Below, piece after piece: positions 755 through 21,098 of a DNA stretch of 64,000 nucleotides. The DNA is from Kyrpidia tusciae DSM 2912 (GTDB lineage Bacteria > Bacillota > Bacilli > Kyrpidiales > Kyrpidiaceae), in the NCBI RefSeq assembly GCF_000092905.1, contig NC_014098.1, positions 3,224,001 to 3,288,000 on the forward strand. Direction: 5' to 3'. How positions within the stretch are numbered: position 1 is the stretch's first letter; each line of letters opens with the position of its first letter. The notes beneath the pieces were generated by a model. It did not search any database and had not been told where the DNA came from. It was given only the letters and a program-made list of their open reading frames with translations. Made by a program: the position numbers and the translations under genes.

Positions 755-2112
755 TGGACTCCCTCCACCACGTGCAGCCTCCGGGCCAGGGAGGATGAGA
801 ACCGGTTTTCCGGATCGATCCGCCCCTTGATCTCCCGAAACCGCCCCAACCTGGGATACATCGCTTCAAAAATCTCCGGCGCCAACTCCGCGTCCTTCGT
901 CAAATACACCCGCCCGCCCATTCTCAGCACCCACTCGTCCATCTCCCTTAAGAACCCGAACAAGCCCGCGTCCCGAAAGGGGATGTCCAGGGCCAGGGTA
1001 TACCCCGGGCGGGGGAAAGACAACAGCCCCGGCCCTTCCGCCCCAAAGCGTTTTAACACGGCCAAAAAGGACGACCGGCGGTCCTTGGCCAGGCGTTCCA
1101 GGAGGGCAATGAGCCCTTCCCGGCTCGTCTCAAAGGGGAGTACCACCTGGTACTGCAAAAACCCCCGCCTGCCGTACAGCCGGTTCCAGTGCAGCACCGA
1201 ATCCAGCGGATAAAAGAAAGGATCGTAGTGGACCACCGCCCCGGGCGCCCCTTTGGACACCCGGTAATACAGCGCGTTAAACGCCCGAATCGATACGTAG
1301 TTCAATGTCACCGACGGAAAATCGAAGGGCACGACGAGCTTCCCCTTTTTCCCGGTCGCCAGGGGCTCCCCCCTCAGCTTCTCCGGCAGTGCCTCGGCCG
1401 GTACGTGATTCCCCCGCATCAGCACGGACCGGCCCAGGGACCGCCCGCCCGCCAAACAGTCGATCCAAGCCACCGAGTACTGGTACTGCTCATCCGTCGC
1501 CTCGAACACCTCAAAGGCCTCATCAATATTTTTCGCCTTAAAATAATCCACCCGCAGGTATGACGAGGAAATCGGCACCAGCCGCAGCGATGCCCGAAGA
1601 ATCACCCCGGTCAGTCCCATTCCCCCCACCGTGGCCCAGAACAGGTCGGCGTTCTCCCGGGGGGTGCAGCGAACGATCTCTCCGTCTGCCGTGAGCAGAT
1701 CGAAATCCAGGACAAAATTCGAAATCGACCCGTCCTTGTGGTGATTTTTCCCATGGACGTCCGAAGCGATCGCCCCGCCGAGGGTCACGAACTTCGTCCC
1801 CGGCGTCACCGGCAAAAAATACCCCCGGGGCACGAACACATCGAGGATTTCCGCCAGAGACACCCCGGCCTCGCACCGAATCACCCCCGCCGCCTCATCA
1901 AAGTTGAGAAACCGGTTGCGCCTCGTCTGCAGAATCACCCCGGCCCCCTCGTTCAGCGCCGCGTCGCCATACGCCCGCCCGAGTCCCCGGGCGAGGACGC
2001 TCCTCTCCTCCCCGGAGACCACCACCTCTTTCAGCGCCCGCAGGGATTCCGGCCGGTACACCCGACACCGCTGCACCGGGTACCTTCCCCAGCCCGACAG
2101 TGAAACTTCCAC
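751..2112 (-). CDS. FAD-dependent oxidoreductase, DprE1-like
   Basis: A vanillyl-alcohol-oxidase-type flavoprotein of 454 residues. The GTG start at 2112 is chosen because GGGAGG lies just upstream; the frame stays open further upstream without a better site. The FAD-binding part has GRAYGDAALN (about residues 45-54), PGTKFVTLGGAIASDVHGKN (about 104-123) and WATVGGMGLTG, all closely resembling mycobacterial DprE1. The C-terminal part keeps the YxxKD lysine region. The position matching the benzothiazinone-target cysteine of DprE1 (NICVDFP) reads TLALDIP, an alanine. It lies between a GT-C glycosyltransferase (16 bp upstream) and a DprE2-like SDR (4-bp overlap), which suggests polyprenyl-phosphate pentose epimerisation for a surface glycan. 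Confidence 0.8.
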   Translation of the reverse strand: MEVSLSGWGRYPVQRCRVYRPESLRALKEVVVSGEERSVLARGLGRAYGDAALNEGAGVILQTRRNRFLNFDEAAGVIRCEAGVSLAEILDVFVPRGYFLPVTPGTKFVTLGGAIASDVHGKNHHKDGSISNFVLDFDLLTADGEIVRCTPRENADLFWATVGGMGLTGVILRASLRLVPISSSYLRVDYFKAKNIDEAFEVFEATDEQYQYSVAWIDCLAGGRSLGRSVLMRGNHVPAEALPEKLRGEPLATGKKGKLVVPFDFPSVTLNYVSIRAFNALYYRVSKGAPGAVVHYDPFFYPLDSVLHWNRLYGRRGFLQYQVVLPFETSREGLIALLERLAKDRRSSFLAVLKRFGAEGPGLLSFPRPGYTLALDIPFRDAGLFGFLREMDEWVLRMGGRVYLTKDAELAPEIFEAMYPRLGRFREIKGRIDPENRFSSSLARRLHVVEGVQ

Positions 2113-2128
2113 GAAAAGCCCTCCCGTT

Positions 2129-3688
2129 CTAGCCCTGCTCCTCGGCTGTTTTATCAAAAGCCGCCCGGTGCGCCGCAAACGCCACCCCGACAATCCAAAA
2201 CCCGTAGATCGGAAACAGGTACCTCGGCTGCCCCTCGGACGCGAAAATCACGGCCGTCACGAAGGCGATCATGAGCACATTCACGCGATGCGCCGCCCCG
2301 AGCCGAAGCCCCGCGATCCTTCGCAGCCCCATCGCCAACACGTACACCCAGCCGCCACCGATCACCACCAGGGCCGCGGCCCGGGCCCCCTGCAACAGCG
2401 GCTCCACCCATCGCCGGTCGATCCGCAGCTCGGCCGGAGCCACCGACCAGTCCGCCACATCCCCGGCAAGATTGAAATAGCTCGCGCTCAGTCGATCGAA
2501 CCCCAGGCGGACAAACCCCAGCGGGTGCGCCCGGATCCAGGCCATCCCCTCGTCTTTGGCCCGGGCCATGGCCACCGCCTCGTCGTACACCCCGTCCGGT
2601 CCCAAAACCCGATCGGTCTTAAAAATCGAATTCGGCACCTGCAGCGGATCCAGATACCAGCCCCGGTTGGCGTCATTGTTGTTGATGTACAGGACAAAAT
2701 CTCCGTTGGTGGAGATGGGGATGAACCGGTGAAACACCAGGGCGTTGCGAATGGTCCACGGGGCAATGACTGCCGCCGCCGCCGCGCCGCTGACCACCAG
2801 TGCCAGGATCGCCCGCCGCCAGGCGGACCCCGCCGTCCATGGCCTGAGCCACCCCCGCAGCCCTGCCCCTGGGTGTCGAAGCGCCGTCACCGGTTCCACC
2901 TGGGGACTGCGGCCCGCCGGGATCCCCACTACATCCGCCGGTGAACTCTGGCGGGCCAAGGCCGTCGCCGCGCCTCCCGGCCGTCCTCGCTCCACCGGGG
3001 CCACCGCCGCCCCCGGCTCTCCCCTTTCCTCCCGGGCCCGCAGGTAGTGCAGTGCCCCGTACAACGCCGGCATCACCGCAAAATACGGTTTGACCAGGGC
3101 GAGCCACCCCATCAGGGCGCCGAGCGCCGCCATCCCGGCCGGCTTCCGGTCAAAACCCCGGACGTGCAGAGCGGCGATCACCGTCACCAGACCCGCCGAC
3201 AGGGTCTCGGTCCCGAGCACGCTGCTGTACGCCACGGAGGTGGGGAACACCGCGGCGACTCCGGCCGCAAGAAGCCCGGCCCTCTTTCCTCCGGCCGCCG
3301 CCGCCAGGGTGTACACCGCCCAGATCCACAGGCCGTCCAGGGCCACATTGGCCAGCTTCGCCGCCAGGACCGACGGATAAACCGCATAAACCGCCGTGAG
3401 GAAAAAGGGGTAACCCGGCGGCCGGAAAGCTGTGGGATAATGCACCCCCGTTTTCACGTAGGGTGTGTCCATTTTGATGTAATCCAGCCCCTCGGGCATC
3501 TCATAGCGCCCCTGATGGAGCAGCGACATGGCCAAATCGTGATAATGCAAGAAATCCGAGATGGGCTGGGTGTTCACCGCCCAGATCCACCCCAGGCGCA
3601 GGGCGATCCCGAACAGGAGGATCGCCGCGAGCCAAGGCCTTCCGCCGCGCCCCGGACCGGGCACCCCGCCCGCCGCCCGGAGCCTCAT
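2129..3688 (-). CDS. GT-C family membrane glycosyltransferase (PMT/ArnT-like)
   Basis: A 519-residue polytopic protein with about ten hydrophobic segments. It begins with a transmembrane helix followed by a loop with paired acidic/histidine residues (SDFLHYHDLA, about residues 39-48) and an RPPGYPFF motif, as in dolichyl-P-mannose:protein mannosyltransferase and ArnT-type enzymes. These use polyprenyl-phosphate sugars outside the membrane. A Pro/Gly/Arg-rich insertion of about 50 residues interrupts the middle (about 225-280). The start overlaps the Wzz gene stop (ATGA). Its neighbours are DprE1/DprE2-like enzymes, which would fit a polyprenyl-phosphate pentose donor. The acceptor is unknown. 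Confidence 0.7.
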   Translation of the reverse strand: MRLRAAGGVPGPGRGGRPWLAAILLFGIALRLGWIWAVNTQPISDFLHYHDLAMSLLHQGRYEMPEGLDYIKMDTPYVKTGVHYPTAFRPPGYPFFLTAVYAVYPSVLAAKLANVALDGLWIWAVYTLAAAAGGKRAGLLAAGVAAVFPTSVAYSSVLGTETLSAGLVTVIAALHVRGFDRKPAGMAALGALMGWLALVKPYFAVMPALYGALHYLRAREERGEPGAAVAPVERGRPGGAATALARQSSPADVVGIPAGRSPQVEPVTALRHPGAGLRGWLRPWTAGSAWRRAILALVVSGAAAAAVIAPWTIRNALVFHRFIPISTNGDFVLYINNNDANRGWYLDPLQVPNSIFKTDRVLGPDGVYDEAVAMARAKDEGMAWIRAHPLGFVRLGFDRLSASYFNLAGDVADWSVAPAELRIDRRWVEPLLQGARAAALVVIGGGWVYVLAMGLRRIAGLRLGAAHRVNVLMIAFVTAVIFASEGQPRYLFPIYGFWIVGVAFAAHRAAFDKTAEEQG

Positions 3689-5130
3689 CTCACGTCCGGG
3701 CGCTCCAGCCAGCCCGGCATCGCCACGGCCCGCGTCCGGGCGAACAAACGGCCCCGGGCCGGCCCGTCGGCTTCCCAGAGCACGGCGCCCAGCACCCTGG
3801 CCCGGGCCAGATCGAGCAGCCGGGCAGCCTCTTCCACCGCTTCCTTCCGCACCCGCCCCCCGCTCAGAACCACCAGCACCCCGTCGGCCACGTGACAGAA
3901 AATCCTCCCCTCCACCGTGCCCAACAAGGCCGGCCCTCCGATCACCACCTGATCGTAAACCCGCCGGGCCTCGTCCACCAAAGCAGCAATCTGCTCGTCG
4001 ACCCCGGGGCCGCCCTTTTCCTCCCCGGCGCCCACACAGAGCCTCTCAAGTCCCTCCACGCCGGTGGGCTGCACCTTCGACCGCCAGTTCGCTGGCATCC
4101 CCCCGGATCCGGTCCAATCGATGAGCAACGTCCTCCGTCCGGCTTCCGCCTCGACCCGGGCCAGGGATGCCGCCGTCACCCGGCTGTCAGCGCCGGGCAC
4201 ACAACCCGCCACCGCCAGCACCCGGGGCATGCGGTCCCCGGCGGCAAAGGCCACATTGACCCGGAGCGCCCGGTAGATGGCCCCGGCATCCGCCCCGGCG
4301 CCCGTCCCGTCCCCGGAAGCCCCGAAACCCTCCGCCGCCGGCGCCGACCGCCGGACCGCGGACAACACCCGGACCCCCAGGTGCCGCTCCACCTCCCGGA
4401 CCGTGCGCACCATGGGAGTGGTGTACTCCCGGACCAGCGCCGCCCCCGCCCCCAAGATCAGCCCGAGAACGACCGCCACCGCCACCTTGGCCAGGGAGTG
4501 AGAAGCCGGCGAAGGAGCAGCCGCGGCCACCGCCGCCGGCGCACTCACCACACTCAAACTCTGGGACTGGGGAATGCGCTTCATCATCTCCCCGAGCACA
4601 TCGATGGCCGCCTGGGCCAAAACCGTCGCCCCTTCGGCCGACCGATCCTTCGCCGTGATCGAGAACAGGTGGCCGGACCGGGCCACCGACAACGACGCCC
4701 CGTCCGGAAGCGCCCCGGCACCGACGGCACCCCCGGGCGCAGCCCCCGCACTCGCCGAGCCGGCACTCCCCGAACCCGCCGTCCCCCCGGCGTACACCCG
4801 GGCCACCGCCTGTTGAAACGCCTGGCTCTGCATGAGAGCCAAATCACTGCCCAGCACCGCATCCACCGCTTGGGCGGCGTCCGCCGCCGACCCCGCGGCC
4901 ACCCCGGGCCCGCCCGGCCCCGACCCGCCGGCCGCCCCGGGCGTCACCTGCACGTAGATCGCCGCCGTGGCCGTGTATGTAGGCGCGGGGGCCGGCTGCC
5001 CCCGAAAACTCACCCAGGCTCCCAGAACGGCGACCACAGCCGTTATCAGGGCAATCAGCGGGATCTGCCGGCCCAGGGCCCGCAGCAGATCCCGCAGATC
5101 CACCACATCCTCCATCTGCCGCTCGTTCAC
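3685..5130 (-). CDS. Wzz chain-length regulator fused to degenerate BY-kinase-like domain
   Basis: A 481-residue protein from a GTG at 5130 that overlaps the previous stop (GTGA). Residues 24-41 and about 214-233 are transmembrane, enclosing an Ala/Gly-rich extracellular loop, the usual Wzz topology. The C-terminal cytoplasmic half follows the BY-kinase layout: beta-strand plus P-loop position (about 304-318), LLID strand (335-338), and YDQVVIGGP (392-400) at the Walker B position. The P-loop reads AGCVPGADSRVTA with no GK(S/T), and the aspartate-rich motifs are lost, so ATP binding is doubtful. It probably sets polymer length together with the ligase/polymerase encoded just upstream. A conventional active tyrosine autokinase is unlikely. 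Confidence 0.75.
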   Translation of the reverse strand: MNERQMEDVVDLRDLLRALGRQIPLIALITAVVAVLGAWVSFRGQPAPAPTYTATAAIYVQVTPGAAGGSGPGGPGVAAGSAADAAQAVDAVLGSDLALMQSQAFQQAVARVYAGGTAGSGSAGSASAGAAPGGAVGAGALPDGASLSVARSGHLFSITAKDRSAEGATVLAQAAIDVLGEMMKRIPQSQSLSVVSAPAAVAAAAPSPASHSLAKVAVAVVLGLILGAGAALVREYTTPMVRTVREVERHLGVRVLSAVRRSAPAAEGFGASGDGTGAGADAGAIYRALRVNVAFAAGDRMPRVLAVAGCVPGADSRVTAASLARVEAEAGRRTLLIDWTGSGGMPANWRSKVQPTGVEGLERLCVGAGEEKGGPGVDEQIAALVDEARRVYDQVVIGGPALLGTVEGRIFCHVADGVLVVLSGGRVRKEAVEEAARLLDLARARVLGAVLWEADGPARGRLFARTRAVAMPGWLERPDVR

Positions 5131-12487: not shown

Positions 12488-14167
12488 TCATCCTTCAGCC
12501 TTCGCCGGAGCGGCCGAAGCCGCAGGGGAACCGGTGTGGGCCGGCTGGGCCTTCGGCCGGCTCCTCAGGAAGAAAATGAGCGGCAGGGCAAAGAACAGCG
12601 GGATCGACGCCACCATGAACGTGTCGGCGACGGCCCGGGTCACCGCCTCTTTCTGGATGAGGCCCGCCAGGACCGCCGCCGCTCCGCCCGCAGCTGTCGC
12701 CGGATCCAACCCGGCCTGGCCCAGACCGGCACTGACCTGGGCCTGGAGCTGGGCGAAGGGCACCGAGTCGATGGTCACCCCGTCGCTGATCCGGGACAAT
12801 TGCACCGCCGAACGCTGCTGGAGAATCGTGGTGAGCGCCGCGATGCCGAATGAGGCGCTGATCTGCCTCACCATGTTGCCCAGCCCCGACGCCCGGCCGA
12901 TTGTGTCGGGCGGCAGCGCGTTCATCCCGGAGGTGGTCAACGGCATCATCGAAAGACCGATCCCCAAACCCCGAAGGACCAAGACCCACGTCAGCCAGGA
13001 ATTCGGCGTATCCAAGGCCAAATTGTGCAGATGATACGTCATGGCGGCCAGGAGCAGCACTCCCACGACCCCCAAAGGCACCGGGCCTATCTTGTCAAAT
13101 AATTTGCCGGAGACGGGCATCATCAGCGCCATGGCCAGAGCCTGGGGCATGAGAAGCAGTCCCGTGTCCATCGCCGACAGGCCCTGGATATTCTCCAAGT
13201 ACAGAGGTGTCAGAAACACCCCTCCGAACAGCCCCACCATCACGAGACTGGAGGTGATGGTGCTGATGGTGAAGGTCGGGTTCTTGAACAGCCGCAGGTC
13301 CACCAGGGGTTTGGCGGTGCCGAGCTCCACCCAGACCAGAAGGCTCAGGGCGGAGACGGCGATAAAGAAGAGACTGACAATGTAAAAGGACCCCCAGCCC
13401 TCTTTTTGGCCGTCGCTGAGCGCCAGCAAAAGTGTCCCGGTGCCCACCATGGAGAGGATGAACCCCGCCGTGTCGAAACCGAGGTCTGTCTGGATCGGCG
13501 TTTCCCGGAGCAATATCATCCCGAAAAGGGCGGCTAGCAGTCCAAAGGGTACGTTGACCAGAAACAGCAGGTGCCAGGAAAAATATTGAATCAAGTAGCC
13601 TCCAAAAGTCGGGCCCACGGCGGGCGCTGCCATGGACGCGATCCCCCAGATTCCCAGCGCCAGCCCGATCTGGTGCCGGGGAATGATCTTGTAGATGATC
13701 GTCATGCTGAGGGGCATCAGCGTCCCCCCGGCCAACCCCTGCAAAATCCGGAAACCGATCAGGGCCGAAGTGCTCCATGCGACCGAGCACAGAAACGACG
13801 CCGCGACAAATAGCACAACGGAGATCAAATAGGATTTTTTGTAACCGAACCGGTCACCGAGAAAACCACTCAGGGGCACCACCATGGCCGAAGCCAGGGT
13901 GTAGCCGGTCAGCACCCACTGGATCTGGTCCGTGGAGGCCCCGAAAAAATTCGCGAGTTGGGGCAGGGCGACGTTAATCAGGCTGTTGTTGAGGATCGCC
14001 ATAAAGGCCCCGAGGATGATGACGACCAGAGCCAGCCACTGGGCCTCCACGACCTCATCGGGGGCGGCCGGCCCTCCGGACCCGGCCCCGGGACCCGGGC
14101 GATCCCCGGCGCCAGCCGCCGGGCCGCCTGGACCGCCCGGCTGCGCGGCCACGTCCTCCCGGCTCAC
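12488..14167 (-). CDS. MFS drug transporter, DHA2 (EmrB/QacA) family
   Basis: A 559-residue, 14-helix transporter starting at a GTG that overlaps the HlyD stop (GTGA). Hallmarks: an N-terminal helix with NNSLINVALPQL, motif A as GFLGDRFGYKKSYL, and motif C-like GPTFGGYLIQ. The N-terminus is preceded by a Pro/Gly/Ala-rich stretch of about 35 residues. It forms one operon with two HlyD/EmrA adaptors immediately upstream, like EmrAB-type systems, and probably exports hydrophobic compounds by proton antiport. Confidence 0.9.
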   Translation of the reverse strand: MSREDVAAQPGGPGGPAAGAGDRPGPGAGSGGPAAPDEVVEAQWLALVVIILGAFMAILNNSLINVALPQLANFFGASTDQIQWVLTGYTLASAMVVPLSGFLGDRFGYKKSYLISVVLFVAASFLCSVAWSTSALIGFRILQGLAGGTLMPLSMTIIYKIIPRHQIGLALGIWGIASMAAPAVGPTFGGYLIQYFSWHLLFLVNVPFGLLAALFGMILLRETPIQTDLGFDTAGFILSMVGTGTLLLALSDGQKEGWGSFYIVSLFFIAVSALSLLVWVELGTAKPLVDLRLFKNPTFTISTITSSLVMVGLFGGVFLTPLYLENIQGLSAMDTGLLLMPQALAMALMMPVSGKLFDKIGPVPLGVVGVLLLAAMTYHLHNLALDTPNSWLTWVLVLRGLGIGLSMMPLTTSGMNALPPDTIGRASGLGNMVRQISASFGIAALTTILQQRSAVQLSRISDGVTIDSVPFAQLQAQVSAGLGQAGLDPATAAGGAAAVLAGLIQKEAVTRAVADTFMVASIPLFFALPLIFFLRSRPKAQPAHTGSPAASAAPAKAEG

Positions 14168-15444
14168 GGGGTCTTCCCTCCCTGCACCTGGACCTGGGCG
14201 CCGTCTTTGAGATCAGTCGGGGGCTGGATGACCAGTTTATCGCCGATGCTCACCCCGGACGCGGCGATAAACCAGTTGTTGTCTTTCTGCTTCCCTTGCA
14301 CCGCCACGCGACGAGCCTTGTCCCCTTCCAGTTTGAAAACCGCCGTTTGGCCACCCTGCTTGACCAAGGTGCTCACCGGGATCTCCACCCCGGCCTCGCC
14401 GCCGGCAAAGGTCACGTCCGCCACCATCCCCGCCCGAAGCTGGCCGCCCGAGTTGGGCACCGTGACTTCCACCGGGAAGGTGTTGTTGTTTTGATCGGAC
14501 ACCGGGCTGAGGAAGGTGATCGTCCCTGTGAAGATCTGATCCCCCAGTTCGGCCACGTGCACCGCCACCGTCTGGCCGGTGTGAAGCCCGGGCAAAAGGG
14601 TCTGGGGCACACTGGCGTCCACCTTCACCGTGTCGAGATTCACCAGGGTCATCAGGGGCACCCCCGGGGCCGCCATCTCCCCCGGATTGATGTTTTTCGA
14701 CGCGACCACGCCGTCCATGGGCGCGGTGATCTTCGTGTTCGCCAGGTTATTCTGCGCCGCCTGCAATGCGGCCTGAGCCTGGTTCACCGCCCCCCGGGCC
14801 TGGTCGACCTGGGCCCTGAGCGCCGCGATGGTGTTCGCCGTGGCCCCGGCCTGGGCCAGACTGAGCTGGGCTTTGGCCTGATCCAGTGCCCCCTTGGCCT
14901 GGGCCAACCCGAGCTGGGCCTGATCCAGCGCCGACTGGGGTGCGGCCCCGGCGTTAAACAGGTTTTGCGTGCGGGTCAAGTTGTCCTGGGCGGTGTCATA
15001 CGCCGCCTGGGCCTGCTCCACCGCCGCCTGGAGCTGTTGAATCTGTTGCTCCCGGGCGCCGGCAAGGGTGTCGGCCAGCTTCGCCTGGGCGGCCGCGAGT
15101 CCGGCCTGGGCCTGTTGCAGCCCGGCCTGGGCCTGGTTGACAGCGGCGGTATAGTCGGTGGGATCGAGTTCCACCAGGACCTGCCCCTTATGTACCCGGG
15201 ATCCCTCGCTGACGTGGACCGCCGTCACCCTTGCCCCCAATTTCGAGGAAACCTGCACAGAATCGGCCGCCGCCACCTTGCCGGTCACCGTCTGGCCGCC
15301 GCCGGCCACGGTGAACACCTGGACCACGGGCCCGGTCAGCGCCGCCGGCGCCGATGTGGCTCCGGAGCCGCAGCCGGAGAGCAACAGCAGCAGCGCGGAA
15401 GAGGCGGCGATGAACAAACCAAGGTTCTTCGGACCTCTTTTCAT
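14164..15444 (-). CDS. HlyD-family efflux adaptor lipoprotein
   Basis: A 426-residue protein, ATG at 15444 after GGAGGGGG. Signal peptide with lipobox LLSGC (residues 21-25). Lipoyl halves bracket a long Gln/Ala-rich helical hairpin, then a beta-barrel with TITFLSPVSDQNNNTFPVEV. It sits 12 bp after the EmrA-like gene and overlaps the MFS gene, so this MFS pump appears to have two adaptors of different length. Confidence 0.88.
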   Translation of the reverse strand: MKRGPKNLGLFIAASSALLLLLSGCGSGATSAPAALTGPVVQVFTVAGGGQTVTGKVAAADSVQVSSKLGARVTAVHVSEGSRVHKGQVLVELDPTDYTAAVNQAQAGLQQAQAGLAAAQAKLADTLAGAREQQIQQLQAAVEQAQAAYDTAQDNLTRTQNLFNAGAAPQSALDQAQLGLAQAKGALDQAKAQLSLAQAGATANTIAALRAQVDQARGAVNQAQAALQAAQNNLANTKITAPMDGVVASKNINPGEMAAPGVPLMTLVNLDTVKVDASVPQTLLPGLHTGQTVAVHVAELGDQIFTGTITFLSPVSDQNNNTFPVEVTVPNSGGQLRAGMVADVTFAGGEAGVEIPVSTLVKQGGQTAVFKLEGDKARRVAVQGKQKDNNWFIAASGVSIGDKLVIQPPTDLKDGAQVQVQGGKTP

Positions 15445-15456
15445 CCCGTCCCCCTC

Positions 15457-16113
15457 CTATCCTTTGATGTGAATGCGGATCTCCGCGCTCATCCCCGGGG
15501 AAAGGTCCGCCCCGTGCTGGTCGTCAATGCTGATCTTGATCGGGATCCGCTGGGTGACCTTGGTGAAGTTGCCGCTGGTGTTGAGCGCCGGAATGGCCGA
15601 GAACGTTGAATTGGTGGCCTGGCCGATGTCCATCACCCTACCCGTAAAACGAAGGCCGGGAAAACTGTCCACCGTAAAATCCACCGGTTCGCCGAGACGG
15701 ATCTTCCCGAGGTTCGTCTCCTCAATGTTCGCTTCCACGTACAGATTCTTCTTGTTGACGATGAGCGCGACCGGTTGTCCCGGTGAAACCACCTCCCCCA
15801 CCTTGGCCAGGGTCTTGATCACCGTCCCGCTGGCGGGCGCCCGGAGCAGGGCGTTGTCGAGCAGGCTGTTCGGCAGATTGCTGACATCTTGCTGGCCCAC
15901 GATCTGGTCGGCCACCACGTAGTCCCCTTCGCGGATGTTCAACGAGGTGAGCTTCCCGGACGTCCGGGGCATCACCCGGTAGATGTCCCCGTCGATCCGT
16001 GCGTCGTCGGTGGTTACGTAATGGGACGCCTGGTACCAGTAATAGGCGCCGATGCCCCCGCCGCCGACGACGATCGCAATCACGAGGATGATGAGGATGA
16101 TCTTTCGCTTCAT
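15457..16113 (-). CDS. Short EmrA/HlyD-like membrane fusion protein
   Basis: A 218-residue protein starting at ATG 16113. It has an N-terminal transmembrane anchor (residues 4-24), then the EmrA signature TTDDARIDGDIYRVMPRTSG, and a beta-barrel ending SPGMSAEIRIHI. It lacks the long coiled-coil hairpin found in the next gene (the lipoyl halves join almost directly near residues 66-80). GGGAGG is 16 bp before the ATG, farther than usual, so a non-standard start slightly upstream cannot be excluded. First gene of the MFS operon. Confidence 0.82.
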   Translation of the reverse strand: MKRKIILIILVIAIVVGGGGIGAYYWYQASHYVTTDDARIDGDIYRVMPRTSGKLTSLNIREGDYVVADQIVGQQDVSNLPNSLLDNALLRAPASGTVIKTLAKVGEVVSPGQPVALIVNKKNLYVEANIEETNLGKIRLGEPVDFTVDSFPGLRFTGRVMDIGQATNSTFSAIPALNTSGNFTKVTQRIPIKISIDDQHGADLSPGMSAEIRIHIKG

Positions 16114-16302
16114 GACCGCGTCAATGGTCCCTCCCTCTTTCTTCGCCCGATGCCCGGCGCAAGCCCGGGGTGGGCGTTCTCTCTGTCGGGTTTGCCGTAG
16201 CGGCAGCGCACAGGCACCAGCGACATGATTCTTTACGCACAAAAAAAGACTCGTCGTGCCCAATTGCCGGATATGGCCGAGGCTCCCACCGCCCTCCTTC
16301 CG

Positions 16303-16330
16303 CGAAATCGTTAGTGTGCGAACGATCTCG
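16303..16330. promoter_or_regulatory. Palindromic operator, TetR/MarR-like
   Basis: Two 12-bp arms, CGAAATCGTTAG and CGAACGATCTCG, form an inverted repeat with 10 of 12 matches around a 4-bp spacer. It lies immediately downstream of the predicted -10 box, a place where a bound repressor would block the MFS/EmrA operon. No regulator gene is adjacent. Confidence 0.55.
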
Positions 16331-16336
16331 GTGTAT

Positions 16337-16366
16337 TCTATATTAACGCAAAGCGGCAAACGTGAA
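16337..16366 (-). promoter_or_regulatory. Putative promoter of the EmrA-HlyD-MFS operon
   Basis: Minus strand: TTCACG (16366-16361), 18 bp, TATAGA (16342-16337). TAGAAT overlaps it 2 bp downstream and could serve instead. Confidence 0.45.
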
Positions 16367-16373
16367 CAGAGTT

Positions 16374-16412
16374 TGAAAAAAGAAAGAACGCCGGCCACAA
16401 GTCGCGGCCGGC
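16374..16412 (-). terminator. Terminator following the TolC-like gene
   Basis: Minus strand: GCCGGCC, 9-nt loop, GGCCGGC, then GTTCTTTCTTTTTT. It separates the TolC-like gene from the MFS operon promoter. Confidence 0.7.
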
Positions 16413-16520
16413 CAAGGGAGGGGCTTTTGCGCCGGATTTCTTGCCTTTTTATCATCTGGGAAGGATTGTTGTTTGGCTGTTGCGTGGTTCAGAAAAGGTG
16501 GATGCCCCGACCCCGCCGGA

Positions 16521-18035
16521 TCAACCCGCGGACCCGCCGCTCGAGGTGCCGGATGTGCTCCCCGATCCGCCGGCCACCCAGGGCTTCTCAAAAACCATCT
16601 TGAGATTGTCGAACTGGGCCGCGGTGTTGGCGAGCTGCTGCTTCAATTGATCCACCTTGGCCTGGGCCGCCACCACGTCGGCCTGGATGCCGGTCCCGTA
16701 CTGATACTGGATCTGGGCGAGCTTCAGGCTTTGCTCGGCGGCCGCGAGCTGGGACTGGAGCGATTGATACTGATCCCGGAGCTCAAGCAGCCCGTTGTAG
16801 GCGGAGCGCACCGCCCGGGAAAGTTGGTCTTGCAGATCCTGAACGGTGTTGGCCGCCTTTTGCACATCAATCTGCTTCGCCTCATACGGGTCCGGGTTCA
16901 TCTTGTCGTTGAAGGTGTACAGGTCAAGCTGCAGCTTCGCGAGGTTGACCTGTTGCTCGGCCTGCCAGATCGCCGGGCTGTCCGAAGTCACCCGGGCCAC
17001 CTGGGCTTCGGGATCCACGTTGTTGAGATCGTCGACCCGGGGCTGGTCCACCACCTGGTACTTGGCATCCGTGGGGAGCCCCGTCAGGCTGTTGAGCCGC
17101 TGGTAGGCGTCGGTCACCGCCTTGTTGGCCGCCTCAAGACCGGCTTTCGCGGCTTGGAGCCCCTGCATGGCCTGTTGCCACTGGATGTCGCTCACAGTCC
17201 CGTACTGATGGCCAACCGTGGCAATGTTCGCCTGGACCTGGGCGTTTTTCAGCGCCGCTTCGGCCGCCTGTTGCTGAGCCTCGGCTTGGAGGATGCCGTT
17301 GTACGCCTGTTTTACGGCGTAGGTCACCACATCCTGGGCCATGGTGTACGCCCGGAAGGACATCTGGTGGGCGATGGATGCCTGGGCATACCCCGCATAG
17401 ATCTGGGTGGTCGTGGTATCGCCGCCCCGGGCGGGCACGAATTCCACGTTATCCGAGACTTTGTCCAGAACCTTGCTGGTCCGCGTGATGTCTTCCAGGG
17501 CATTCTTCACCTTGTAACTATTGGCGTAGGCCAGCTCCAGCGCTTTCTCGTAGGTCAAGGGGACATTCGTCGTGTCCGGAGAGACCCCGGAGGTAATCGC
17601 TCCCTGGGTCGACAACACCAGGGTTTTCCTGCCGTCGATCCACTCGCTGTCCCCGCCCAGCCACTGCGCCACGGGGTTCGGCGGAATGAGGATTGACCCG
17701 TTCAACGCCATGGGCGCCGCCGGCAACTGAACCTGACTGCCGCCCCGCCAGGCCATGCCGGAGCCCACAGTGAGCGTGACGGTTTGCGAGCCCTTGGACA
17801 GCGTCACGGTTTTCGCCCCATCATCTTGCTTGAGTGTCGCTCCGAAGGCCTTCGCCAACTGGTCGGCGGGCACAAACACCTGGCCGTTCACCCACTGGGG
17901 CATGAAGGTCCACTGCTGGGCCTGGCCGTTGACAACCACCTGCACCGGCTGCGGTTGAGCATCCGCCGCGAACACCGGAACGCCCCCCGCCAGCATCGAG
18001 GTCAATGTCAGAACCGCCACTGGCTTCCACTTCAA
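16521..18035 (-). CDS. TolC-family alpha-hairpin protein with N-terminal CuAO-N domain
   Basis: About 504 residues, with a TTG at 18035 favoured because GGAGGAG lies 9 bp upstream (another TTG is at 18041). A signal peptide (about 25 residues) is followed by a region resembling copper-amine-oxidase-N repeats (about 30-150, with FVPADQLAKAFGA and SILIPPNPVAQWLG). Two outer-membrane-efflux-type repeats follow (about 155-330 and 330-490), rich in Ala/Gln heptads, with YGTVSDIQWQQA and YGTGIQADVVAAQ at equivalent positions. The segments where TolC has its membrane beta-strands are short or absent. In an apparently monoderm cell it may form a helical duct or spacer through the wall or S-layer for the adjacent pumps. 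The Ser/Gly-rich C-terminus is probably flexible. Confidence 0.75.
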   Translation of the reverse strand: MKWKPVAVLTLTSMLAGGVPVFAADAQPQPVQVVVNGQAQQWTFMPQWVNGQVFVPADQLAKAFGATLKQDDGAKTVTLSKGSQTVTLTVGSGMAWRGGSQVQLPAAPMALNGSILIPPNPVAQWLGGDSEWIDGRKTLVLSTQGAITSGVSPDTTNVPLTYEKALELAYANSYKVKNALEDITRTSKVLDKVSDNVEFVPARGGDTTTTQIYAGYAQASIAHQMSFRAYTMAQDVVTYAVKQAYNGILQAEAQQQAAEAALKNAQVQANIATVGHQYGTVSDIQWQQAMQGLQAAKAGLEAANKAVTDAYQRLNSLTGLPTDAKYQVVDQPRVDDLNNVDPEAQVARVTSDSPAIWQAEQQVNLAKLQLDLYTFNDKMNPDPYEAKQIDVQKAANTVQDLQDQLSRAVRSAYNGLLELRDQYQSLQSQLAAAEQSLKLAQIQYQYGTGIQADVVAAQAKVDQLKQQLANTAAQFDNLKMVFEKPWVAGGSGSTSGTSSGGSAG

Positions 18036-18158
18036 GCGCAATCTCCTCCTTTCCCATTCGAAGGTTGTTCACCCGCCGTTCTCAGACCCGCCGGGCATGC
18101 AGAACAAGCGCCGTGAGCCCATTTGGTTGCCTCGGGCAACTTTCCCCATGAAGGGGAA

Positions 18159-18177
18159 GGGCCCCATCATGGGGCCC
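18159..18177 (-). terminator. Hairpin downstream of the S-layer locus
   Basis: GGGCCCC-ATGAT-GGGGCCC on the minus strand, followed by a second short hairpin (TTCCCC/GGGGAA). It has no long T tract, so termination is plausible but not certain. Confidence 0.45.
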
Positions 18178-18212
18178 TCCGGATCGGGGCGCAGCGGCAT
18201 CCTCGATCTTCC

Positions 18213-18593
18213 CTACCACTGGGAGGTAATGATCGCCTCTTGCGCGCTCTCGTCCCAATACGTATAACCGTTCAGCGCGAGACCAACCCAGCGAACCGGG
18301 AGCACCAGGCGACCGTTCACCAACTCCGGAGCCACGTCCATCGTCACCGGCACTCCGCGTGCGATGAGGCGTGTGGAGCCGGCGGTGAAGATCGCCGACA
18401 GGCTTCCCTTGGTGAGGGCAACGGATTGGTCGCGTTCATCCCACGCGATCCCTTCCCCGTTCACCCCCAGGGCTTCGGCGGCGTATCTCAGCGGAACCAT
18501 CATACGCCCGTCCCTTATGTAGGGCGCGACATCCATCGCTATCGATACGCCGTTCAGCCTGTACGCCGCCCTCCCAGCCGTGAATATCGCGAC
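18213..18593 (-). pseudogene. Extra CuAO-N module in frame after the S-layer gene stop
   Basis: The codons directly after the TAA stop of the upstream gene stay in the same frame for 126 codons. They encode another CuAO-N repeat: VAIFTAG near the start, MDVAPYIRDGRMMVPLRY, then MDVAPELVNGRLVLPVRWVG, ending ITSQW. It matches the C-terminal repeat of the upstream protein position by position. The first ATG falls well inside the repeat and has no well-placed ribosome site. It could be a remnant cut off by a nonsense mutation, or an extension made only by stop-codon read-through. Confidence 0.7.
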
Positions 18594-21098
18594 TTATTGC
18601 TGGGTCGTCACCGTCACGGTCTGAGTCGCCTGATCCCAGCTGATGTTGGCGTTGAGCGCCTGGCCAACCCAGCGGATCGGGAGCATCACGCGACCGTCGT
18701 TGTACAGTTCAGGCGCCACGTCCATCTGGACCGCCGTGCCGTTGACGATCAGGGTGTTGCTGCCAAGGGTCATCTTCACGACGCTGCCGCCCTTGAAGAT
18801 CGTGACGGACTTATCATTCTGGTTCCAGATGATGCTGTCATCGCTCACGCCCAAGGCGTTTGCGACAAAGCGCACCGGCAGCATCACCCGGCCGTCATTC
18901 TTGAGGTACGGCGCCACGTCCATGGTCTGCTGCTGGCCATTGACCGTGTAGGTGGTGCTGCCCACCGTGAAGGTCGCCACGTTCGACCCAGACTGAGCCG
19001 GGGTGGTGACGGTGGCAATGGTCGTGCTGGCAGCGGTGGTGTTATTGTCCTGCCATGTCTGCACCGCAAACGGACTGTTGAGATCCGGGTTGGCGTCTTT
19101 GGCGTACGCCGTGTAAGACACCGCCGGCCCTTTTACCTTGAGGACAATGTCGCCCTGCGGGACCGTGCGGTCAAGTTTCAGCTTTGCATTCGAGATCGTA
19201 ATCTGGCTCGGCGTCGTGCTCTCGGCATCCACATAGAAGTCGAGATATCCTTTATTGTTGGAGCCGAGCCCGGACGACACATCCTTAATCCGCAGATCGC
19301 CCTGGGTGACTTCGACCGTCGGAGTTCCGTCAAATTGCACGCCGTACGGCAACTCGATGTGCACCTGGTTATATCCCGATCCCACATCCGAGTTCTTGGC
19401 AAATCCGCCCGCCACGTTCTCGGTCAGTGTAATTGTACCGATTGCCTGACCGCCCGCACCGACGATCACGTTCGGCGTCGTATCCGCCTTCACAGAGATG
19501 GGCGTCTGGACGGTAGCTACCGTGATGTTCCCGGTCACACCCTCGCTGCCACCGAGCTGAATTGTCAAATCTCCACTGAATCCGGGTTGCAAGGCAACCT
19601 GCATATTCCGAAGGTCAATCTCGCCTGGGTTCGTGGAATTCTTGTTGGAATTCCCGTTGACGATCAGCTTCAGGGTTCTGCGGTCAGTGTCCGTATAAAC
19701 TACCTTTGGAGTGCCTAGGCCGTTGGTGGCGGTAATTGACCCCACATAGTTGCCATTTTGTGCATCTTTACTGTTTTCGAAGGGGGTTTCCCATCGGGCT
19801 CCATCAGGGAGCTGCAACGTCACGGTACGGCCATCGATGAAGGAACCAGGTACTGTCTCTTTGATGATGATATCGCCGATGATCTGCTCCTTCTTACCTG
19901 CAATGAGCGTCGGCTTGCTCACCACAGACGATTCAAAACCAACCTGACCATAATGGCCAACAACCAGACTCGACACGTTTGTGCTGGATGCACCGGTGAT
20001 CTGAACCGTTACGTCACCGTTTCGAGCCACGGTTTCGTCATCAACATAGAAATGCAACCCTGTAATTAGCCAGCCGCTAGCTTGTGTAGTCGAGTCCGTT
20101 GTTGAGATCCAAAGGTCTTGATCCTGAACGTGAATTTGCAGATTAGTTTTCGCCTTCGCATCTTGGCCGTACACCAGAGCTGCGGGCGCATTTTGTGAAT
20201 CTGTATACCACTTAAACCCGCTGGGCAGTTTCAATTTCAGCGCATTGGTGCTCGTCTTAAGAGATCCAGCAACTTCCTCGTTCACGGCAAGGTTGAACGT
20301 GAACTCATCGCTGCTGCTCTGGGTGTCCGTGGCTGCCAGATCGACCTTTCCGGAAGACACCACATTCGCAACAGTTACAGTGCCCGTCGGCAATGCACTG
20401 TTCGATGGCGCAATCAACGTCGCATTAACGGGACCGTCGGAAGGACCAGTCACATTGATGTTGGGCAGGTGCACAAGGAGATGCACATCATCGATTTGAC
20501 TCCAGCCTGGCTGAGGATTAAATTTTATCTTTAACAATGTGGCGCTCGGGATCTGCCACTCTACACCCACCGTACCGCTAAATACCCCCGAGGTCGTTGC
20601 CAAGTCCACATACGGCGCCGCCACCCGCTTGGTAACATTATCTTGAGCAGTCATCGGACGGCTATTATTTACAGGGGCTACTGTGATCCCATAGCTTACA
20701 TTATTATTCATCTGCTCATTATAGGAAATAGTGGACGGTGTAGTGCCACCCGGTAGCGCAGCCACTGATACGTTAGCTGCACTTACCCCTTGAGTAACGT
20801 CGGCCTCAGTCCAGTCGCTTCCAATAACCGCAGGGTCAAACTGAAAGCCGTTTGGCAATAGAAGGGTGACCTGGTTGTCAGAGCCACTCGCCAAAGCGCC
20901 TTTCGGAATGAACAGATCAATCGTGCCCAAGTCGGCGATTTGTGCCGAACTATTGATATTCGGCACGACCAGCGCCGTCGCCGTACCAGCCGCATGGGCC
21001 ACCGTCGCGGTCAAGAAGGGCAACGTCACAGCCGCCGGCGTGGTGCCGAAGAGGGCTGCGGTGGAAAGTACTGCAAGAGCCTTTTTGCCTCGCTTCAT
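18594..21098 (-). CDS. S-layer-like secreted protein with C-terminal CuAO-N repeats
   Basis: An 834-residue secreted protein starting at ATG 21098 with GGGGGAGGAG upstream. It has an N-terminal signal peptide (cleavage probably after AHA, about residue 37) and a long, Thr/Val/Asn-rich region of Ig/cohesin-like beta repeats (for example repeated GxxxGTITLTENVAG and VPGSFIDGRTVTLQLPDG patterns). The last 130 or so residues form a double CuAO-N repeat with MDVAPYLKNDGRVMLPVRF and MDVAPELYNDGRVMLPIRWV. Composition and architecture fit a cell-surface array protein. CuAO-N domains recur in surface proteins of this group and their function is unknown. It has its own promoter and a leader of about 450 nt. 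Confidence 0.78.
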   Translation of the reverse strand: MKRGKKALAVLSTAALFGTTPAAVTLPFLTATVAHAAGTATALVVPNINSSAQIADLGTIDLFIPKGALASGSDNQVTLLLPNGFQFDPAVIGSDWTEADVTQGVSAANVSVAALPGGTTPSTISYNEQMNNNVSYGITVAPVNNSRPMTAQDNVTKRVAAPYVDLATTSGVFSGTVGVEWQIPSATLLKIKFNPQPGWSQIDDVHLLVHLPNINVTGPSDGPVNATLIAPSNSALPTGTVTVANVVSSGKVDLAATDTQSSSDEFTFNLAVNEEVAGSLKTSTNALKLKLPSGFKWYTDSQNAPAALVYGQDAKAKTNLQIHVQDQDLWISTTDSTTQASGWLITGLHFYVDDETVARNGDVTVQITGASSTNVSSLVVGHYGQVGFESSVVSKPTLIAGKKEQIIGDIIIKETVPGSFIDGRTVTLQLPDGARWETPFENSKDAQNGNYVGSITATNGLGTPKVVYTDTDRRTLKLIVNGNSNKNSTNPGEIDLRNMQVALQPGFSGDLTIQLGGSEGVTGNITVATVQTPISVKADTTPNVIVGAGGQAIGTITLTENVAGGFAKNSDVGSGYNQVHIELPYGVQFDGTPTVEVTQGDLRIKDVSSGLGSNNKGYLDFYVDAESTTPSQITISNAKLKLDRTVPQGDIVLKVKGPAVSYTAYAKDANPDLNSPFAVQTWQDNNTTAASTTIATVTTPAQSGSNVATFTVGSTTYTVNGQQQTMDVAPYLKNDGRVMLPVRFVANALGVSDDSIIWNQNDKSVTIFKGGSVVKMTLGSNTLIVNGTAVQMDVAPELYNDGRVMLPIRWVGQALNANISWDQATQTVTVTTQQ

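Follow-up and report, generated by a model that had tools for sequence, protein, structure and literature searches.

A second Cu_amine_oxidN1 domain in frame behind the stop codon of a Kyrpidia tusciae S-layer-like gene is probably the recent remnant of a neighbouring paralogue

Why should a reading frame run on, open and unshifted, for 126 codons beyond a stop codon, and encode there one more complete protein domain? The question is raised by an S-layer-like gene (the label is that of a first-pass annotation) in the hot-spring bacterium Kyrpidia tusciae, on the minus strand of the 64,000-nucleotide stretch of DNA analysed here, hereafter the window. The first-pass annotation had described a TAA at 18596-18594, 126 codons following it without a shift, and a complete repeat encoded by them, and this observation is confirmed; the sense codons reach as far as a TAG at 18215-18213. 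The locus is made up of the following features, with coordinates in the window.

18594..21098, minus strand: S-layer-like gene of 834 codons, ending in QQ-TAA, with a C-terminal PF07833 domain
18597..18980, minus strand: the gene's own C-terminal Cu_amine_oxidN1 domain, the first copy
18594..18596, minus strand: the gene's TAA stop, with G as the next base; a homologous TAA in G001 and G002 is followed by T
18216..18593, minus strand: the tail, 126 in-frame codons with a second complete Cu_amine_oxidN1 domain and no start of its own before 18536
18213..18215, minus strand: the tail's TAG stop, about as far behind its domain as the gene's own stop
18137..18180, minus strand: G+C-rich hairpin, a possible terminator, 86% conserved over 44 nt in G001
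16521..18041, minus strand: next gene, encoding a TolC-like (OEP) protein with an N-terminal PF07833 domain; a conserved neighbour

The tail covers positions 2-108 of the 108 in the PF07833 profile, with an E-value of 1e-27 and 96.6 bits against a cut-off of 24.2. The match is far beyond chance, and with the Pfam gathering score exceeded the tail is a member of Cu_amine_oxidN1 (PF07833). The same profile finds the S-layer-like gene through its end domain (E = 4.5e-40); a Pfam scan of that gene found nothing but the PF07833 domain, and its N-terminus looks, by eye, like a signal peptide. The gene's own domain and the tail share 50% identity in an alignment that starts at the tail's first codon, and the tail's end coincides with the gene's own end. 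About half of the residues differ between the tail and the preceding domain, so it does not qualify as a recent, nearly identical copy. The predicted fold of the tail alone was uninformative (mean pLDDT 39). Two further properties of this stretch were seen: the gene looks mosaic (18597-21098, minus strand), with a GC3 of 0.61 and a low codon fit in its first 707 codons and a GC3 of 0.88 in its end domain, and a 531-codon open frame on the plus strand (18123-19718) lies antisense to the gene's 3′ part and the tail, probably as a by-product of composition.

As the first-pass annotation had noted, the tail has no well-placed start. There is no ATG, GTG or TTG in its frame upstream of 18536, and the first in-frame ATG, at 18536, stands about 32 nt from an SD-like GGGAGGG at 18575-18569; a start there would cut the domain, with the first 19 residues lost and no signal peptide (by eye). 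The SD-like run could be taken to mark a short gene of its own, beginning at this ATG or at a non-standard codon, and stand-alone proteins of one such domain are known in two other genomes (G037 and G021). Those proteins, however, carry a signal-peptide-like N-terminus (by eye), which the tail lacks, and with the ATG so far from the SD-like run and inside the domain a separate gene is very improbable. What the tail presents is the pattern of a gene remnant, with the start and the 5′ part absent and the 3′ end kept.

Whether the stop or the tail is the newcomer can be judged from where related genes end. The genus sample comprised three genomes, namely one K. tusciae strain, Kyrpidia EA-1 (G001) and a third Kyrpidia (G002). 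The EA-1 orthologue is 85% identical over 1-834, and the gene ends in ...TTQQ-TAA in K. tusciae, in ...TSQQ-TAA in EA-1 and in ...SVQQ-TAA in the third Kyrpidia. None of 18 relatives (12 + 6), all of them ending soon after the same end domain, has such a domain directly behind the stop, the comparison for the third Kyrpidia covering under 100 codons past it. A complete in-frame domain directly behind the stop was likewise found in none of 40 phylum stretches and L097; one flagged pair (L125) consists of a partial match and then a separate protein with its own N-terminus. In G037, G148 and K. tusciae, the domain of the TolC-like gene falls in the same frame further downstream, behind more stops and with its own N-terminus. 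The homologous QQ-TAA in EA-1 and the third Kyrpidia, together with the lack of such a tail in all relatives compared, indicates that the gene's stop is ancestral and that the tail is a later addition. The downstream sequence agrees with this order of events: in EA-1, 46 nt lie between the gene's stop and the G+C-rich hairpin, whereas in K. tusciae the conserved hairpin stands behind the tail, so the tail is an addition that separates this hairpin from the stop. No T run accompanies the hairpin, and it is absent from the terminator-scan list; that scan gave 3 sites, against 3.1 in shuffles, and none on the minus strand between the TAA and the tail's end.

This comparison overturns one of the two readings first offered for the locus, in which a recent nonsense mutation cut a longer, two-domain protein. 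The frame does go on without a shift, as that reading has it, but the stop is homologous in both other Kyrpidia genomes and a second end domain follows it in none of the 18 relatives. A sense codon at 18594-18596 in related genomes had been proposed as the check, and none was found when the check was run; a recent nonsense mutation is now hardly credible. A sequencing error at the TAA was considered separately and is unlikely, given the homologous stops in the Kyrpidia relatives.

PF07833 matches that meet a stop occur elsewhere as well. Among the 14 matches in the K. tusciae genome, two others contain a stop (L008 and L014), one of them looking by eye like a shortened gene and the other like a broken fragment; at L008 (G000:C1:1239177-1239431), a TAA cuts short the PF07833 match at the end of a long K. 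tusciae gene. In another genome, a 1047-codon frame (L136, G682:C28:17000-24000, 887-4210) has one TAG right at the end of its PF07833 domain and continues coding-like in frame, for which a nonsense change or recoding is possible.

The gene downstream of the hairpin belongs to a recurrent arrangement. An end-domain gene is followed by a TolC-like (OEP) gene at 9 of 13 loci, in 7 cases one with an N-terminal Cu_amine_oxidN1 domain; for this count the longest downstream frame was scanned, the scan gave no family in G047, and G002, G045 and G014 were left out. The loci of this observation are the window (16521-18041 and 12488-16455, minus strand), L016, L018-L022, L025 and L027. In K. tusciae, HlyD-type and (by eye) transporter genes come after the TolC-like gene. 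That a TolC-like protein of these Bacillota has a domain in common with the adjacent gene product merits attention.

Where, then, did the tail come from? In the joint alignment, the two Kyrpidia domains are 83% identical to each other and the tail is 48-49% identical to both. K. tusciae and EA-1 differ at 74 nucleotide sites, at which the tail agrees with K. tusciae in 25 cases, with EA-1 in 29 and with neither in 20. Two one-residue insertions, present in the K. tusciae and EA-1 domains, are absent from the tail and from the 11 other S-type domains aligned. The balance of site agreement and the absence of both insertions show that the tail was not derived from the K. tusciae gene once the EA-1 lineage had separated, and the site count contradicts a post-split copy of K. 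tusciae's own domain. The trees leave the parent unsettled: in the tree of 22 rows, the tail stands beside EA-1's domain (88/78), and with 78 rows beside two long branches of other families (97/85), while a Kyrpidia clade that includes the tail is not rejected (p-AU 0.35). We also considered a silent cassette recombining with the gene's own domain and rejected it; 153 of 375 nucleotides differ, a divergence probably too great for easy exchange.

The tail's divergence bears the mark of selection. In a branch codon model of 6 sequences and 118 gap-free codons, omega was 0.12-0.13 on the tail's branch against a background of 0.11, with a profile that peaked near 0.12 and a 2-unit drop near 0.35. 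Holding the tail's omega at 1 was 7.4 lnL units worse in the best topology and 10 to 12 units worse in two others. These values indicate that the tail diverged under protein-level purifying selection, though not necessarily in its present arrangement. A model with a functional and then a neutral phase had its optimum at zero neutral time and lost 2 lnL units at about 0.18. Set against tip lengths of 0.47-0.49 since the K. tusciae/EA-1 split, this would confine a neutral phase to about 40% of the elapsed time or less; saturation of the third positions makes these bounds rough.

Simulated neutral decay gives a measure of how much erosion such a domain could bear. Starting from today's K. tusciae or EA-1 domain, with 300 runs each, decay to about 48% identity (130 substitutions) left the frame open in 9 and 12% of runs, and the tail's profile score was reached in 0 of 300 from either start; after 60 substitutions, 18% and 9% of runs were still at that score. 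A profile model built without the Kyrpidia domains scores the tail at 122 bits and those two domains at 182 and 177, and a model of all 19 domains gives the tail 126 bits, against leave-one-out scores of 135 to 201 for the 19. The tail is intact yet more diverged than any of the 19 domains. Its earlier description as still uneroded holds in so far as it diverged under purifying selection, but its score is below that of every relative's domain. The purifying selection and the short bound on a neutral phase suggest that the tail either was orphaned recently or is still translated.

We favour the recently orphaned remnant over a tail that is still translated, and consider read-through the less likely of the two. 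The tail is probably the recent 3′ remnant, that is, the last domain and stop, of a former neighbouring paralogue whose 5′ part was deleted. A paralogue of the S-layer-like gene would have adjoined it, and a deletion would have taken the paralogue's 5′ part and brought its 3′ piece right up to the end of the intact gene, the shared frame being a one-in-three chance. The remnant would now lie between the ancestral TAA and the conserved hairpin, probably as untranslated 3′ sequence of the gene's message (co-transcription of the tail with the gene is likely), and would be uneroded because its reading start was lost only recently. The comparisons establish that the stop is ancestral, that the tail was added and that it evolved in the past under protein-level constraint; we infer its co-transcription with the gene, the recent loss, which gene was the parent, and that the tail goes untranslated.

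The tail's own stop, at the usual distance after its domain, speaks for such a remnant. Against it, a complete second paralogue is present in no Kyrpidia genome examined; the complete parent was not found in 4 family genomes, of which two are drafts with a completeness of 79 and 86%. Other parts of a second paralogue were not seen among the best 5 of 9 matches within the K. tusciae genome, where, besides the gene and the tail, only the domain was matched. One search of genome contigs, in which near records may be left out, gave a single unrelated-looking locus and no Kyrpidia. Under the remnant reading, it is a coincidence that the junction falls exactly after the TAA and in frame.

Neighbouring end-domain genes, as the remnant reading supposes, do exist. 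Two or more complete frames stand side by side in 5 of 40 Bacillota stretches (L108, L117, L124, L128 and L133), and in 4 more a second end-domain gene is cut by the stretch edge (L101, L104, L125 and L137); these fractions are not a rate, because the stretches were chosen as top matches to the tail and some were enlarged for listed neighbouring matches. Such tandem C-terminal Cu_amine_oxidN1 genes in other Bacillota (for example L124 and L108) carry this domain with a similar spacing to the stop, in adjacent copies on one strand, whereas K. tusciae has just the last domain of the second copy, with no start and no signal peptide. Truncated pseudogenes are likewise coding parts deprived of their start, but the tail is still open, shares its frame with an intact relative and follows that relative's stop without a gap. 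PMC3236038 reports 173 pseudogenes for K. tusciae T2. Among the matches listed by literature searches on Kyrpidia tusciae, on the domain and S-layer and on bacterial stop codon readthrough, nothing concerned this locus; PMC5270738 treats transcriptional readthrough and is not relevant here.

Low-level read-through of the UAA, the second of the first-pass readings, would yield small amounts of an extended protein that carries two end domains. Were the protein as abundant as S-layer proteins are, rare read-through events might already supply enough product for selection to keep the tail; that argument relies on an abundance assumed from the look of the gene as one for an S-layer protein. The exact in-frame continuation from the first codon, the complete domain, the purifying selection and a neutral phase that went undetected all suit this reading. 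So does the base after the stop, which is G here and T in 9 of 12 relatives, and PMC5289835 associates +4U with less read-through. The same paper gives UAA, this gene's stop, as the least leaky stop in bacteria, which counts against it; nor is TAA-G out of the ordinary, being found in 4 of 11 TAA-ending frames including this gene, with TAA-T in 0 of 11 (from a crude window set of 47). The RNA fold around the stop is not unusual (z of -0.74 and 0.00). The tail contains 7 AGG, AGA and ATA codons where 1.9 are expected and the gene's own domain has 0; its GC3 is 0.77, compared with 0.88 in that domain. The rare-codon argument is weak, since the codons were picked once the sequence was known and the overall codon fit of the tail, 0.669, is above that of most of the gene (0.616 in the first 707 codons). 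Known read-through extensions are likewise in-frame coding sequence after a stop with past protein-level selection, but here the stop and extension are not conserved across species, the stop is of the strongest type and no unusual structure was found. The UAA, the seven rare codons and the ordinary fold tell mildly against the proposal, and low-level read-through is unlikely. A selected form of it, in which a small share of the surface protein would carry the second end domain and the event that added the tail would also have changed UAA-U to UAA-G, is improbable.

Two other histories would place the tail behind the stop by different routes. An in-place tandem duplication of the domain and stop that predates the separation of K. 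tusciae from EA-1, stayed untranslated throughout and disappeared from EA-1 would account for the tail being one of the domains nearest to Kyrpidia's (48-50%), and the duplicated unit would be just the domain plus stop. It requires a copy untranslated since before the split, however, and such a silent copy is disfavoured by the bound of about 0.18 on the neutral phase against the much longer tips; simulated decay of 130 substitutions never kept the profile score and seldom an open frame, although the lesser decay of 60 substitutions fits. An in-place duplication is distinctly unlikely. Alternatively, another thermophile could have supplied, by recombination, just the 3′ end of a gene of this type. 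The tail's match to a distant Bacillota domain (G762) is as good as that to Kyrpidia's own (50%, 123 bits), AGG, AGA and ATA are commoner in the tail than in the window's genes, and the 78-row tree takes the tail out of Kyrpidia. Long-branch attraction is a likely cause of that placement, the Kyrpidia clade is not rejected (p-AU 0.35), and samples of 398 class and 398 phylum genomes contained no closer donor and none above about 50% identity; an imported 3′ end has a low probability.

The locus illustrates how a gene that looks truncated or read through can be understood by comparing the places where its relatives stop, which here date the stop as old and the tail as new. Should the tail be translated after all, it would count as a rare example, on a bacterial chromosome, of a selected UAA read-through product, and the protein may be abundant enough for direct detection.
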